Shown: positions 7,866 through 29,910 of the stretch, one piece after another
Numbering within the stretch: the stretch's first letter is position 1
How the letters are laid out: each line of letters opens with the position of its first letter
Source: an uncultured bacterium
GTDB taxonomy: Bacteria; Actinomycetota; Actinomycetes; S36-B12
DNA: 32,590 nt
Reading direction: 5' to 3'
NCBI GenBank assembly: GCA_903850745.1
Contig: CAINMH010000057.1
Span: 1-32,590, forward strand
The notes under the pieces: model-generated
What the model was told of the DNA's origin: nothing
The model's database searches: none
What the model saw: only the letters and a program-made list of their open reading frames with translations
Translations under genes and position numbers: made by a program

Positions 7866-8810
7866 CTAAACGGTGGTTGATCCGCCATAGCCGGACAGGG
7901 CCTCTTGGGCCAGGGTCCGGACGCGGTCCACCAGCGCTGCCGGTGAGACCGCTCGTGCTTGTCCCCCGAGGCTCAGGACCAGCCGGGCCGCCCACTCCAG
8001 GTCGGAGACGAGGAGTTCGACGGATCGCACGCCATTGGTCTCTCCGAGCAGTTTTGCCGCATGGGTCTCGACCACCCACGATGCCGAGGGCTGCAGGGAA
8101 AGTTCGACCTTCGTCTGGGCCGTGGGCTCGTCGTCGAGTGCCCCCACCGAGGGCGGCACCGATTGCCCACCCAGTGAACAGGTGAGAATCCGGTCAAGCC
8201 GGAAGGTGCGTACGGCCTCGGCCAGGTCGCACCATGCTTCGACGTAGGTATAGCCCTGACCGACGAGGACCCGCATGGGCGTAATGGTGCGCTCGGTGAC
8301 GTCTTCGCGGGTGATGCCGGCGTAGGTCATGTGGACGCTGAGACCTTGAGCGATCGCTTCGTCGAGAACAGCTGCTTGGTCACCGCTTGCTATTCGCATG
8401 TCGACTAAATCGGCGGCAAGTGCTCCGCCACCTGCCCTCTCGAGTTTTGCGGTCGCAGTGACCAGTGCATCGCGGTCATGGTCGCCCGGGACCTGCGCGA
8501 GGACCCGCAGGCCCACCAGGAGCGCGGTGACCTCGTCGGGCGTGAGCCGCATGGGTGCGGTCAACGTTTGCGGGTCGAGTACGTGGATCTCCTCGTCCTC
8601 GTCCCAGAACTGAATATCGACGAGGTGCTCTGGGCCGTAGCCGGGTAAGCCACTGCAAATCAGGAGGTTGAGGTCGTCAACCAGTTCCTCGGTCGTTACC
8701 CCAAAGTGCACGGCGGCTTCAGACACAGTCACGCCGTCATGGGCCGAAAGCCACGGAACTAGAGCAAGCAGACGCGACAGGCGTTCGGGTGCAGCTACCG
8801 GGCGCGTCAT
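7866..8810 (-). CDS. pafC: WYL-domain transcriptional regulator PafC
   Basis: The 314-residue protein has an N-terminal winged-helix-like domain (about 1-75; RLSRLLALVPWLSAH is typical) and a central WYL domain (~160-225: MTYAGITREDVTERTITP, then RTFRLDRI). A C-terminal WCX-like extension follows. In mycobacteria PafC pairs with PafB as an activator of the LexA-independent DNA-damage regulon. The canonical WYL triplet is degenerate here (YTYVEA). Its ATG overlaps the pafB stop as ATGA, as expected for partners made in equal amounts. The name rests on synteny and order (pafB then pafC). Confidence 0.9.
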   Translation of the reverse strand: MTRPVAAPERLSRLLALVPWLSAHDGVTVSEAAVHFGVTTEELVDDLNLLICSGLPGYGPEHLVDIQFWDEDEEIHVLDPQTLTAPMRLTPDEVTALLVGLRVLAQVPGDHDRDALVTATAKLERAGGGALAADLVDMRIASGDQAAVLDEAIAQGLSVHMTYAGITREDVTERTITPMRVLVGQGYTYVEAWCDLAEAVRTFRLDRILTCSLGGQSVPPSVGALDDEPTAQTKVELSLQPSASWVVETHAAKLLGETNGVRSVELLVSDLEWAARLVLSLGGQARAVSPAALVDRVRTLAQEALSGYGGSTTV

Positions 8811-9751
8811 CGTGTGTGCTCCGCAATCAGGATCTGCAGACGTTGCACGACAACGTCACGCACATCGCGTGGCTCAAGCACCACCGCGTCGGGGCCAGCA
8901 GAGAGAATCTCGGGGACTACGTCAAGTCCGTCTGCGCAGGTCACTGACACCACGTCTCCGGCAAGGGATCCACGTAATCGCAAAGAAGCCCCAGCACCAG
9001 GACTCACCTGAACTTGGACAGTGCGATTAGGCGAGTCCCCGATCCAGTCGCCCACTGCGGATCGTGGATCGGTGTCGCGCGGGATGCTGAACGAGTCATC
9101 TGCACCAAATGCCGTGACGGTCCCATCTATGCGCGACAGGCGAAAGACTCTTTGTGACGTGCGATCGACATCAAGACCCACTAGGTACCACGCGCCTCGC
9201 CAAGCAACCAATGCCCACGGCTCGACTTTGCGGGCCTCCGCCTGAGATGCGTCGGGCTTGCGATAGTCGAAACGCACACGTTGCCTGCGGCGAATGGCAC
9301 GCAATAGCGGCACGATGGCCGGCATGGACGTTGCGGAAGTGCCTGTGACTCCGATCAGCAGATTGCCTGCGCCTTCGTTGCCATCTAGCGCTTCGATCTT
9401 GCGCAATGCGGTCGCAGCGGCGGGCTGGCGGGCCGCTGTTTCCCACACCTGTGCAGCGACGGCCAGAACACTCAATTCAGCCGGTGAAAAACGAAGATCG
9501 TCCAGCGCGTAGTCCTCGTGCGTGATGCGATACCCCTCGACCTCGCCCCCGGACATGACCGTCTCGATCGGAATACCCATCGCCCGCAACTCGTCCTGGT
9601 CGCGCTCAAACATGCGCTCAAAGGCGTCATCGGAGGCGCTTGCGTCATAACCAGTGACGTTCGCGCGGATAAATGACCGAGGAACCGCACGGCGAGAGGC
9701 CATCAGGCAGAAGACCAGATTAAGTAGCCGCTCCGTACGATCCACAGCCAC
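8807..9751 (-). CDS. pafB: WYL-domain transcriptional regulator PafB
   Basis: The 314-residue paralogue of the next gene has an N-terminal helix-turn-helix (about 1-60, TERLLNLVFCLMASRR), a WYL domain around residues 150-215 with GAWYLVGLD, and a C-terminal WCX-type extension. Known family role: PafB/PafC together activate repair genes through the promoter TTGTCRGTG-N8-TANNNT after DNA damage; the WYL domain is thought to sense a nucleic-acid ligand. The start is GTG at 9751, 8 bases after the FKBP stop, with AGGA 8 bases upstream. Three possible target sites occur in this window at 18070, 25620 and 29759. Confidence 0.91.
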   Translation of the reverse strand: MAVDRTERLLNLVFCLMASRRAVPRSFIRANVTGYDASASDDAFERMFERDQDELRAMGIPIETVMSGGEVEGYRITHEDYALDDLRFSPAELSVLAVAAQVWETAARQPAAATALRKIEALDGNEGAGNLLIGVTGTSATSMPAIVPLLRAIRRRQRVRFDYRKPDASQAEARKVEPWALVAWRGAWYLVGLDVDRTSQRVFRLSRIDGTVTAFGADDSFSIPRDTDPRSAVGDWIGDSPNRTVQVQVSPGAGASLRLRGSLAGDVVSVTCADGLDVVPEILSAGPDAVVLEPRDVRDVVVQRLQILIAEHTR

Positions 9752-17142: not shown

Positions 17143-18042
17143 TCACGAAGATTCGGTCGAGGCCTGCTCCCAGTCTTGCCCGTATGCGCCCTTAGCCGGA
17201 CGAGTGCGCCGGAGCGGCAACACGGTCCCCGGCGCCAAGCGACGGGACACAATGAGAAAGCCGGTGTGGGCGATCATGCGATGGTCCGGACGAACCGACA
17301 GACCTTCGAGATGCCATGTACGCACGAGTGACTCTTCAGCGCGAGGCTCTGTCCACTCCCCCGATGCCCGAAGTGCCTCACCGACCCGAGAGAGCTGCGT
17401 GGCAGTGGCGACATAGACGACGAACGCACCGCCGGGGCGAAGGGCTCGAGAAGCAACATCGAGGCACTCCCAGGGTGCCAGCATGTCTAAAACGACAGCA
17501 TCGAATGAACCCGACTCGATTTGCGCTTCCTGGAGATCCCCCACTCGCAACTCCCATTGAGTGGGCGCAGCATCGAACCAGGTAGCTACGTTTTTGCGCG
17601 CCACTTCCGCGAAGTCATCTCGCCGCTCATAGGACAACACCGATCCCGTCACCCCTACCGACCGCAGCAGGGAACAGGTCAGAGCCCCTGAGCCAGCACC
17701 CGCTTCGAGCACGCGGCCGCCAGGTTCAAGGTCAGCGAGCGACACGATGCGGGCAGCATCCTTGGGATAGACAACGGTCGCTCCGCGCGGCATCGAAAGA
17801 ACAAAGTCAAGCAATTGTGGACGCTGGGCCAGATACGAGATGCCACCGATCGTGGTGACCACGATGCCTTCGGGTTGCCCAATGAGGCTGTCGTGGTCGA
17901 TACCGCCTTTATGGGAGTGCCACGTCTTGCCGGGCTTGAGCGTGATTGTCCGAATGCGCCCCTTTGGGTCAGTCAACTGGACGAGGTCACCCTCCACGAA
18001 GGGTCCGCGCGGCCGATTCAAGGGCGTCACATCGTCACTCAC
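17143..18042 (-). CDS. trmI: tRNA (adenine-58-N1)-methyltransferase TrmI
   Basis: The 299-residue SAM-dependent methyltransferase makes m1A58 in the T loop of tRNAs. The N-terminal beta-barrel part (GPFVEGDLVQLTDPKG) is followed by the Rossmann domain with the SAM loop VLEAGAGSGALT and the acidic motif VVLDMLAPW. The family is tetrameric. I choose GTG at 18042 because TAGCCT lies 7 bases upstream (leaderless). TTG at 18069 and GTG at 18030 are alternatives. The gene is divergent from the RecB-family nuclease, with 56 bases between the starts, and sits directly upstream of mpa as in Mycobacterium. Confidence 0.92.
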   Translation of the reverse strand: MSDDVTPLNRPRGPFVEGDLVQLTDPKGRIRTITLKPGKTWHSHKGGIDHDSLIGQPEGIVVTTIGGISYLAQRPQLLDFVLSMPRGATVVYPKDAARIVSLADLEPGGRVLEAGAGSGALTCSLLRSVGVTGSVLSYERRDDFAEVARKNVATWFDAAPTQWELRVGDLQEAQIESGSFDAVVLDMLAPWECLDVASRALRPGGAFVVYVATATQLSRVGEALRASGEWTEPRAEESLVRTWHLEGLSVRPDHRMIAHTGFLIVSRRLAPGTVLPLRRTRPAKGAYGQDWEQASTESS

Positions 18043-18049
18043 ACGCGAC

Positions 18050-18055
18050 AGGCTA
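18050..18055 (-). promoter_or_regulatory. -10 element of trmI (leaderless)
   Basis: TAGCCT is followed by 7 bases and GTG at 18042. It faces away from the nuclease promoter, and the two -10 hexamers are 31 bases apart. Confidence 0.5.
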
Positions 18056-18069
18056 TCGGGGTCCCACAA

Positions 18070-18092
18070 ATGTCGGTCCTGGGTCGTAGCCT
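18070..18092 (+). promoter_or_regulatory. PafBC-type (RecA-NDp) promoter of the RecB-family nuclease
   Basis: ATGTCGGTC, 8 bases, then TAGCCT. The mycobacterial consensus is tTGTCRGTg-N8-TAnnnT; all strongly conserved positions and the spacing match, and only the two weakly conserved outer bases differ. TAGCCT is then 6 bases from the ATG of the nuclease. The consensus is established in mycobacteria; its use here is inferred from the match and from pafB and pafC in the same window. Confidence 0.6.
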
Positions 18093-18098
18093 TCCCGC

Positions 18099-18878
18099 AT
18101 GTCGATCACTTCGTTGTCGCCGTCTCGGGCACAGGACTTTATGCAATGCCCGCAGCTGTTCAAGTACCGCGCGATCGACCGTCTACCTGAGCCCCCGAGT
18201 GCGGCGGCGCTCAAGGGCACGCTCGTACACGGAGTTCTCGAGCTCATGTTCGACCTGCCGGCTGTTGACCGCACCCTAGACAATGTCATGGAACTCGTCG
18301 AAGAAGCCTGGGACGCACTCCTCGCAGATGATCCGTCGCTCCTCGACGTTGCGGTTCCCGGAGGCAACTCGTCTCCCGAGGATGTCCTAGCGTGGCTCAA
18401 CGAAGCACGACCATTGATTCACGCCTACTTTCGTCTGGAAGATCCACGACGACTCGAACCAGAGGGGCGCGAAGTCGAAGTACGCACCGAGATCCCCTCC
18501 GGTCTCGTGTTGCGCGGTTTCGTCGATCGCTTAGACATCGCTCCGGATGGCGCGATTCGCATCGTCGATTACAAGACGGGGAAGGCGCCCAAGCCCGCCT
18601 ACGAAGGCAAAGCGCTTTTCCAGATGCGGTTCTACGCGCTTGTGGTGTGGCGTATCCGAGGTGAGATTCCCAAGATGCTTCAGCTTCTTTACCTCGGCAG
18701 TGGTGACATCGTGCGATACGAGCCGACAGAGGATGAACTTCTCGCAACTGAGCGCACAATTGTTGCGCTACACGAGACAATTGAGCGCGCCATTGCGCTG
18801 GATGAATGGCCTACTAAAACCAGCCGGTTATGTGATTGGTGCGCACACAAGGCAATCTGTCCGGCGTTTTCCCAGTAG
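18099..18878 (+). CDS. RecB-family PD-(D/E)XK exonuclease with Fe-S cysteines
   Basis: The 259-residue protein has the Cas4/AddB-like nuclease fold. Cys17 (MQCPQLFKYR) plus Cys245, Cys248 and Cys254 (CDWCAHKAIC) can bind a 4Fe-4S cluster. The active site is His44 (GTLVHGVLE), Asp143 (GFVDRLD), Asp157 and Lys159 (DYK), then the QMRFY motif (175-179). It probably degrades or trims single-stranded DNA ends during repair; no helicase domain is attached. ATG at 18099 has no Shine-Dalgarno and TAGCCT sits 6 bases upstream. The promoter resembles the PafBC type, supporting a DNA-damage role. No cas genes are nearby, so Cas4 is unlikely. Synteny matches Mycobacterium Rv2119. Confidence 0.9.
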   Translation: MSITSLSPSRAQDFMQCPQLFKYRAIDRLPEPPSAAALKGTLVHGVLELMFDLPAVDRTLDNVMELVEEAWDALLADDPSLLDVAVPGGNSSPEDVLAWLNEARPLIHAYFRLEDPRRLEPEGREVEVRTEIPSGLVLRGFVDRLDIAPDGAIRIVDYKTGKAPKPAYEGKALFQMRFYALVVWRIRGEIPKMLQLLYLGSGDIVRYEPTEDELLATERTIVALHETIERAIALDEWPTKTSRLCDWCAHKAICPAFSQ

Positions 18879-25619: not shown

Positions 25620-25642
25620 TTGTCAGATCTGGGAGGTAGGTT
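25620..25642 (+). promoter_or_regulatory. Degenerate PafBC-type promoter of the aldo/keto reductase
   Basis: TTGTCAGAT, 8 bases, then TAGGTT, which is 6 bases before the ATG. Seven of nine positions match the RecA-NDp box with exact spacing to the -10; the final two do not. The leaderless -10 is better supported than the activator site. Confidence 0.4.
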
Positions 25643-25648
25643 CGGTGC

Positions 25649-26632
25649 ATGGAGCAGCGACTACTGGGCACCACGGGCCTACAGGTCAGCCGTCTCGCAC
25701 TGGGCACCATGACCTGGGACCGCGGCACCGACGAGGAGACAGCCCGTGCCCAAGTCCACGCCTTTTTGGATGCGGGCGGCAATCTCATTGACACTGCTGA
25801 CGTATACGCCGATGGCATGTCGGAGCGCATTCTCGGATCGATTCTCGAGGACCCCAGCCTGCGATCGCGATCGATCATTGCCACCAAGGCAGTGTCGCGC
25901 CCCGGCACGCCTCGACGATTTGATGCCTCTCGTCAGCACATCCTGCAGGCTCTTGATCGGTCGTTAGAACGCCTAGGCATCGATCACGTTGACATCTGGC
26001 AGATGCACGTCTGGGATGCATTCACCCCGATTGAAGAGACCCTCGCCGCAATGGACGACGCAGTTCGATCAGGCCGCGTCAACTACATAGGCGTGTCCAA
26101 CTACTCCGGCTGGCAACTTGCGCAGGCGGTCACTTGGCAACGCGCAGTGAGTGGTCGTTCCCCCATCATCTCCACGCAGATGGAATATTCATTGCTGCAG
26201 CGCGGGATCGAACGTGAGGTTCTTCCGGCCGCACAAGCCATGGGTGTCGGCATTCTGCCGTGGTCACCACTGGGTCGTGGCGTGCTCACCGCGAAGTACC
26301 GTCACAGTGCGCCCGTCGACTCCCGCGCGAGTTCGGAGGCATTTGGTCCATTCGTGCAGGCTTACCTGCACGACCGGCATCGACGGGTTGTCGACGGTGT
26401 CGCGATGGCCGCCGAGGGATTAGGCGTCTCTCCGGCCGAGGTGGCCTTGGCGTGGGTGCGCGATCGGCCGGGTGTGGTGTCCCCCATTGTGGGCGCACGC
26501 ACCCTCGAGCAATTGCACGCAGCACTTGCCACCGAAGAACTCGAACTTCCCGAAGAAATCGCGCAGGCTCTCGATGATGTCTCGACACCTTCCAGCGGAT
26601 ATCCCGAGAGCGGTATCTACCAGCGTTCCTGA
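25649..26632 (+). CDS. Aldo/keto reductase
   Basis: The 327-residue NADPH-type (beta/alpha)8 oxidoreductase has the catalytic Asp and Tyr in DTADVYADG, Lys in IIATKAV and His in WQMHVWD. The C-terminal cofactor region includes SPIVGARTLEQL. It resembles the Shaker-beta-like group and probably reduces an aldehyde or ketone; the substrate is unknown. ATG at 25649 has no Shine-Dalgarno but TAGGTT 6 bases upstream. It converges on the HIT gene with a 4-base gap and no terminator between them. Confidence 0.92.
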   Translation: MEQRLLGTTGLQVSRLALGTMTWDRGTDEETARAQVHAFLDAGGNLIDTADVYADGMSERILGSILEDPSLRSRSIIATKAVSRPGTPRRFDASRQHILQALDRSLERLGIDHVDIWQMHVWDAFTPIEETLAAMDDAVRSGRVNYIGVSNYSGWQLAQAVTWQRAVSGRSPIISTQMEYSLLQRGIEREVLPAAQAMGVGILPWSPLGRGVLTAKYRHSAPVDSRASSEAFGPFVQAYLHDRHRRVVDGVAMAAEGLGVSPAEVALAWVRDRPGVVSPIVGARTLEQLHAALATEELELPEEIAQALDDVSTPSSGYPESGIYQRS

Positions 26633-29140: not shown

Positions 29141-29165
29141 TAGATGCTCCTCTAGTAGTGATCCA

Positions 29166-29171
29166 AGGTTA
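29166..29171 (-). promoter_or_regulatory. Probable -10 element of thrS
   Basis: TAACCT lies 25 bases before the thrS ATG and would give a leader of ~19 bases with GAGGAG. The gap to the upstream gene is 121 bases and holds nothing else I can name. Confidence 0.4.
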
Positions 29172-29261
29172 GACGGTACGGAACACCAACAGCCCGGAGG
29201 ACACCTCGTGCGCCGAACTGCCACCACCTAAACCATGGAAAACCAAATTGGCAGTTGGCGG

Positions 29262-29747
29262 TTAGCTCACCTTGGGGCACCACACCTCTGCGTACTTGGT
29301 GTCCGTGCCTGACGTTCCTGCTGGTTTCCAGGTAATGACTTCGGTCCGGCCTGCGTAGCTGTTCGCCGCATTAACCCAAAAGGTGACTCGAGATGGCTGG
29401 GTGGTGTTGGGCCACCACGTGACGTTTCTCCCGACGTTCGGGTTATAGGTGAAGTTGGGTGACACACCGCTCCGTTCCCAGACCGAAGGCGTGGAGGACC
29501 CCGCGGGGAGTGCGGTCCAGTCAAGCTGGATTGTCATGTTGTCACCACCTCCCCAGTTCACCCTCGTGCAGGTGAGGACAACACTGTCGTCTTTCGTCGC
29601 GACAGTGGAGACGGTGCCTGACCTTGAGCCCGTGGTAGTGACACCAACTACGACGGCACCTGCAACGAGGACCAGAGCCACTGCTCCAACAATTACGAGG
29701 CGTCGAGTGCGACGAGTGGAGCGGGTTGCGGTCGGCGTCTCGGTCAT
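29262..29747 (-). CDS. Unknown membrane-anchored extracellular protein
   Basis: I do not recognise this 161-residue protein. It has an Arg/Thr-rich cytoplasmic start (to ~16), one hydrophobic helix (~17-40, VIVGAVALVLVAGAVVVGV) with no obvious cleavage site, then an ~120-residue extracytoplasmic domain. That domain is rich in Thr, Ser, Asn and Trp, with two Cys (LTCTRVNW and VWCPKVS) that could form a disulphide across a small beta-sandwich (NVTWWPN, VTFWVNAAN). ATG 29747 has GGGAG 8 bases upstream. TAGGTT at 29786-29791 is the likely promoter, and a PafBC-type site lies between it and the gene on the opposite strand. Confidence 0.75.
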   Translation of the reverse strand: MTETPTATRSTRRTRRLVIVGAVALVLVAGAVVVGVTTTGSRSGTVSTVATKDDSVVLTCTRVNWGGGDNMTIQLDWTALPAGSSTPSVWERSGVSPNFTYNPNVGRNVTWWPNTTQPSRVTFWVNAANSYAGRTEVITWKPAGTSGTDTKYAEVWCPKVS

Positions 29748-29758
29748 CAAGGACTCCC

Positions 29759-29781
29759 TTGTCGGTGTTTACCGATAATCT
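29759..29781 (+). promoter_or_regulatory. Full-consensus PafBC-type (RecA-NDp) promoter facing away from the unknown gene
   Basis: TTGTCGGTG, 8 bases, then TAATCT: every defined position of TTGTCRGTG-N8-TANNNT matches. It reads to the right, toward the antisense of tRNA-Val, with no protein gene downstream. The site includes an inverted repeat TCGGT-GTTT-ACCGA (29762-29775) inside the 5' leader of the leftward unknown gene, so it may act as an operator. Confidence 0.45.
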
Positions 29782-29785
29782 GAGG

Positions 29786-29791
29786 AACCTA
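29786..29791 (-). promoter_or_regulatory. Probable -10 element of the unknown gene at 29262-29747
   Basis: TAGGTT would start the RNA near 29779, inside the PafBC-type site, giving a leader of ~32 bases with GGGAG before the ATG. Confidence 0.4.
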
Positions 29792-29835
29792 TCCGACGAA
29801 TCCCCCGGGCATGGCTCACTGGCTGAGTGTGACGG

Positions 29836-29910
<75 letters not shown>

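Follow-up and report, generated by a model that had tools for sequence, protein, structure and literature searches.

The closest described relatives of the site reported here are the PafBC-dependent (RecA-NDp) promoters. Their motif was described at the recA gene of Streptomyces rimosus in 2002, as cited in passages of PMC5087735 and PMC2375139, and it has been said to reach other Actinobacteria (PMC8223512). For Streptomyces coelicolor, the relevant passages place the motif of the RecA-NDp set before ung, uvrB, radA, and dinG (PMC2375139) and report that SCO6735 is UV-induced (PMC5087735). For S. venezuelae, a study from 2022 remarked that an initial search suggested that the PafBC motif is not conserved (PMC9380542). 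In Mycobacterium tuberculosis, the putative recB-like exonuclease Rv2119 was found to be overexpressed after mitomycin C treatment in a recA deletion (PMC8151990).

We analyzed a stretch of 32,590 nucleotides from an uncultured actinomycete (contig CAINMH010000057.1), hereafter called the window, in which a site of this type directly precedes the gene of a putative nuclease. The kind of promoter is already known, but it gives a useful pointer to a conserved nuclease.

Results

The site, TGTCGGTCCTGGGTCGTAGCCT, spans positions 18071-18092 of the forward strand and shows the arrangement TGTCRG, N10, TANNNT that characterizes PafBC-dependent (RecA-NDp) promoters. More specifically, the box TGTCGG (18071-18076) is separated by 10 nt from the -10 hexamer TAGCCT (18087-18092), which is followed by TCCCGC and by the ATG at 18099, the sole in-frame start of the nuclease gene before the upstream stop. 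A preliminary description of the window had reported a damage-type box with exact spacing at the start of this gene, and its sequence, coordinates, and spacing are all as claimed. If the A of the ATG is taken as +1, the box lies at -28 to -23, a position which would match the PafBC-specific -26 motif seen in the mycobacterial initiation complex (PMC11804915), and both box and spacing match the published TGTCGG-10N-TA-3N-T (PMC8151990). With 6 nt between the -10 and the ATG, use of this promoter would necessarily give a leaderless transcript.

The downstream gene (18099-18878, forward strand) encodes a protein of 259 residues, which we assign to the stand-alone Fe-S nucleases of the PD-(D/E)XK class, of the RecB/Cas4/AdnA type. 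The protein matches PF12705 (PDDEXK_1, 9.4e-38), in agreement with its earlier designation as a plausible DNA-end processing nuclease, and in the alignment its conserved LSPSRA core starts at residue 6. Ten residues are invariant in 15 orthologs, namely H44, D143, D157, K159, Q175, and Y179, together with C17, C245, C248, and C254, which provide the catalytic His, the Asp, the Asp-x-Lys, the QxxxY, and the four cysteines of the Fe-S PD-(D/E)XK class. The predicted structure (pLDDT 92.8) finds its best fold matches in the nuclease domain of AdnA, Cas4-family proteins, and Dna2, with AddAB also among them. The Cas4 equivalog (TIGR00372) cut-off is not reached, with 50.9 bits compared to 65. These residues and the modeled fold suggest that the protein is an active nuclease and that it carries an Fe-S cluster.

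Of 166 genomes in the order to which the window belongs, 149 contain nuclease matches, though weak and probably paralogous ones are among them, and a leaderless -10 is present at 87 of the 90 loci with the strongest matches. When up to one mismatch is allowed, 33 of these 87 loci have TGTCRG precisely N10 away from the -10, compared to 0-3 loci at the 20 other spacers. By family, this corresponds to 13 of 15 loci in f3, 6 of 7 in both f5 and f6, 1 of 4 in f7, and 7 of 54 in the window's own family, f1. At the same tolerance, the N10 box is found in 68 of 72 named actinomycete loci (58 of them perfect), a set chosen by similarity to the query and including a few loci from the window's own order. 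It is also found in 54 of 65 loci of a class-wide set, composed of a sample plus some hand-added families, with 17 of 17 in family f9 but 1 of 7 in f27, a family with small genomes. Other spacers gave about 0-4 matches, except for spacer 4 in the named set, where 20 near-matches among the 72 loci (4 in the class-wide set) apparently trace back to the Streptomyces spacer TGGCGGG, which is repetitive. Since the loci are related by descent, binomial values exaggerate the significance, and we consider this comparison between spacers the safer control.

Both members of the window's own genus keep TGTCRG, the sister species showing TGTCAGC where the window has TGTCGGT. Conservation of the box in close relatives, the lack of which would have refuted the claim according to the preliminary description, thus extends to the sister species and far beyond, although most of the remaining genera in the own family have lost the box. 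Judging from this conservation, with the box standing before orthologs of the gene in much of the Actinomycetes, the promoter is real and old and of a known kind. Because the box is spacer-locked at the orthologous nuclease in the three sets (68/72, 54/65, and 33/87), the nuclease gene very probably has a PafBC-dependent (RecA-NDp) promoter at 18071-18092.

The nuclease gene and trmI, encoding a tRNA methyltransferase (17143-18042, reverse strand; PF14801 and PF08704), are divergent, with a start-to-start distance of 57 bp. trmI has a probable GTG start at 18042 and a leaderless -10 of its own, TAGCCT at 18050-18055 of the reverse strand, 7 nt 5' of this GTG. The short distance, as well as the overlap of the box with the trmI -35 region, would be consistent with a site common to both genes, through which trmI is repressed or driven as well and at which the use of one promoter excludes that of the other. 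Nevertheless, trmI directly adjoins the nuclease gene in the own family, whereas in most other actinomycetes whose fetched stretch includes trmI the start of this gene is about 1.3 kb more distant and the box is still found at the nuclease. It is therefore the nuclease that the box goes with; the suggestion that the site also acts on trmI finds no support as a conserved function, and we regard a shared element as doubtful, though at this locus, with 57 bp between the starts, a local effect on trmI may exist.

The window also contains the Pup-proteasome locus, including pafC and pafB (7866-9751, reverse strand), which are found 8-10 kb from the site, where the preliminary description had placed them at about 8 kb. 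pafC (7866-8810) encodes the HTH_PafC domain (PF19187, 2.6e-38) together with WYL and WCX domains, and pafB (8807-9751), directly 5' of pafC, encodes a WYL domain (3.6e-21). Both genes look intact, which argues against the possibility that a genuine motif is recognized here by a different regulator, such as ClgR or a WYL protein other than PafBC. In favor of such a regulator, a passage of PMC5656591 mentions a report that ClgR recognizes the RecA-independent motif, and in family f5 the search for PF19187 gave no match (genomes G020-G026), though the box is kept. However, the apparent persistence of the box without PafBC in this family is weakened by the presence of WYL proteins in all but one genome, with close pairs on one contig in 6 of 8, which are probably strongly diverged PafBC proteins still accompanying the box. 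Structural work, moreover, assigns the -26 motif to the HTH of PafB (PMC11804915). Altogether, we consider binding by another regulator very unlikely.

Two lineages mostly lack the box at the nuclease: in the own family, PafC is present in nearly all genomes and the -10 is kept, and in family f27, PafC is present in all genomes tested and the leaderless -10 stays. Since PafC is kept there, the nuclease seems to have left the regulon, or the motif to have changed, in these two families. The presence of the box in only 7 of 54 and 1 of 7 orthologs, respectively, with PafC at hand, counts against a PafBC promoter, as does the fact that the relaxed motif also matches coding regions by chance. A chance match at the nuclease, whose gene would then be read from an ordinary sigma A promoter that depends on its -10 only, would fit the own family, where the -10 is kept far better than the box and many members lack the latter, but it is highly improbable in view of the spacer-locked conservation across the class and of TGTCRG in both members of the own genus.

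A PafBC-dependent promoter at the nuclease gene is also in keeping with the motif counts. TGTCRGT-N9-TANNNT occurs twice in the window, compared to 0.06 expected from dinucleotide shuffles, none of which contained two matches. In the whole genome of 2.57 Mb, it has 14 matches, compared to 2 for the control, which is the same pattern read backwards, and TGTCRG-N10-TANNNT has 25 matches, compared to 11 for its control. The targets include recA, a DnaQ/GIY-YIG exonuclease with a leaderless gap of 7, a DUF6504-dnaE2 pair (the ORF after DUF6504 was named dnaE2 by eye), about ten DUF222/HNH genes, the RecB/Cas4-like nuclease, and an aldo/keto reductase of the window. The genome-wide enrichment before repair genes on which the earlier proposal had hinged is thus present. 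Relaxed-pattern matches within coding regions (L046, L049, L052, L054, and L055) were taken as chance by inspection.

The DUF222/HNH genes are 13E12-like and have a damage box 5' of their start (L002, L003, L006, L009, L011-L014, L048, and L053), several of them being near-identical. The DUF222 assignment was confirmed with Pfam in three of the four genes tested, L048 giving no hit, and was made by sequence likeness for the remainder.

The preliminary description had counted the motif twice in the window, compared to about 0.1 occurrences expected. The two text matches stand, but the second of them, at 29760, is not supported as a promoter. It points at a tRNA gene of the opposite strand, facing its 3' end, and the sister genome lacks about 0.7 kb beside the tRNA gene (29152-29836 of the window), including the ORF at 29262-29750 and the motif itself. 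Because of its absence from the sister genome and its orientation towards the tRNA, we do not regard this match as another promoter. The 29760 motif is an imperfect palindrome as well, TTGTCGGT-GTTT-ACCGATAA.

A better partner of the nuclease site is the candidate PafBC promoter TGTCAGATCTGGGAGGTAGGTT (25621-25642, forward strand), a relaxed match located 6 nt 5' of the ATG at 25649 of an aldo/keto reductase gene. The gap between -10 and ATG is the same as at the nuclease, and all 22 nt are identical in the sister genome. The aldo/keto reductase itself has no obvious link to repair.

The motif is also abundant in eight genomes of a Streptomyces-like genus (g55), with 31-85 matches each, compared to 0-5 for the reversed pattern. 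We consider this genus to be Streptomyces because its nuclease locus and those of named Streptomyces share 80-85% DNA identity. In one of these genomes (G236), 30 sites were read, which precede sbcD, ung, rarA, ruvC, the RecB/Cas4-like nuclease, a DnaQ-like exonuclease, uvrB, and ogt, and also recD2, an AlkZ-like glycosylase, dinG, recA, thyX, xseA, and radA, dinG and recA being named by sequence likeness. At most of these sites, not all, the gene starts 6-9 nt past the -10. We do not present this motif set as new, since passages of PMC2375139 and PMC5087735 already deal with such a set. The abundance of the motif bears on the remark about S. venezuelae (PMC9380542) and makes it directly testable whether Streptomyces has a PafBC response. 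In G213, which belongs to family f23, TGTCGGTGCCCGCCCGTAGGGT recurs round the chromosome in many near-identical copies, as if a promoter-bearing gene family had spread.

Discussion

By analogy with M. smegmatis and M. tuberculosis, single-stranded DNA would, after DNA damage, bind to PafBC through the WYL domains of the latter. PafBC activated in this way would then join the housekeeping RNA polymerase (sigma A) at promoters that combine the TGTCRG -26 box with a -10 hexamer, and transcription would begin there through sigma adaptation. At the locus described here, PafBC may bind the box and induce the gene upon damage, in which case transcription would start on the A of the ATG at 18099 or on an adjacent nucleotide, giving a leaderless mRNA, and the larger amount of Fe-S RecB/Cas4-like nuclease could serve DNA-end processing.

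One may go further and imagine that the core of the actinomycete PafBC regulon includes the nuclease almost universally and that the enzyme closes a feedback loop, in which single-stranded DNA activates PafBC and the induced nuclease makes or removes single-stranded DNA; we see this as speculative and rather unlikely. If it were true, the PafBC-induced nuclease would amplify or end the damage response, and the lineages without the box, namely most of the own family and f27, would have rewired the loop while keeping PafBC. Independently of such a loop, the strongly conserved PafBC-type promoter makes the nuclease a promising conserved repair factor, all the more since our literature search found no in-depth study of it.

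Compared to the RecA-NDp/PafBC promoters of mycobacterial recA (P1) and of S. rimosus recA, the window site has the same TGTCRG, the same 10-nt spacer, the same TANNNT, and the same position before a repair gene, here a putative one. It differs in belonging to a predicted leaderless nuclease gene of a freshwater-type actinomycete. The RecA-NDp set of S. coelicolor shares the motif with the window, whereas PafBC and the nuclease are unnamed in the corresponding passages (PMC2375139 and PMC5087735).

With regard to the protein, the window nuclease appears to have the same fold and the same Fe-S PD-(D/E)XK layout as the nuclease domain of AdnA, the Cas4 family, Dna2, and AddB, but it has no helicase domain and stays under the Cas4 equivalog cut-off. 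Rv2119 of M. tuberculosis is recB-like, as is the window nuclease, and the two may be orthologs, as suggested by this description and by a locus number beside that of trmI (Rv2118c).
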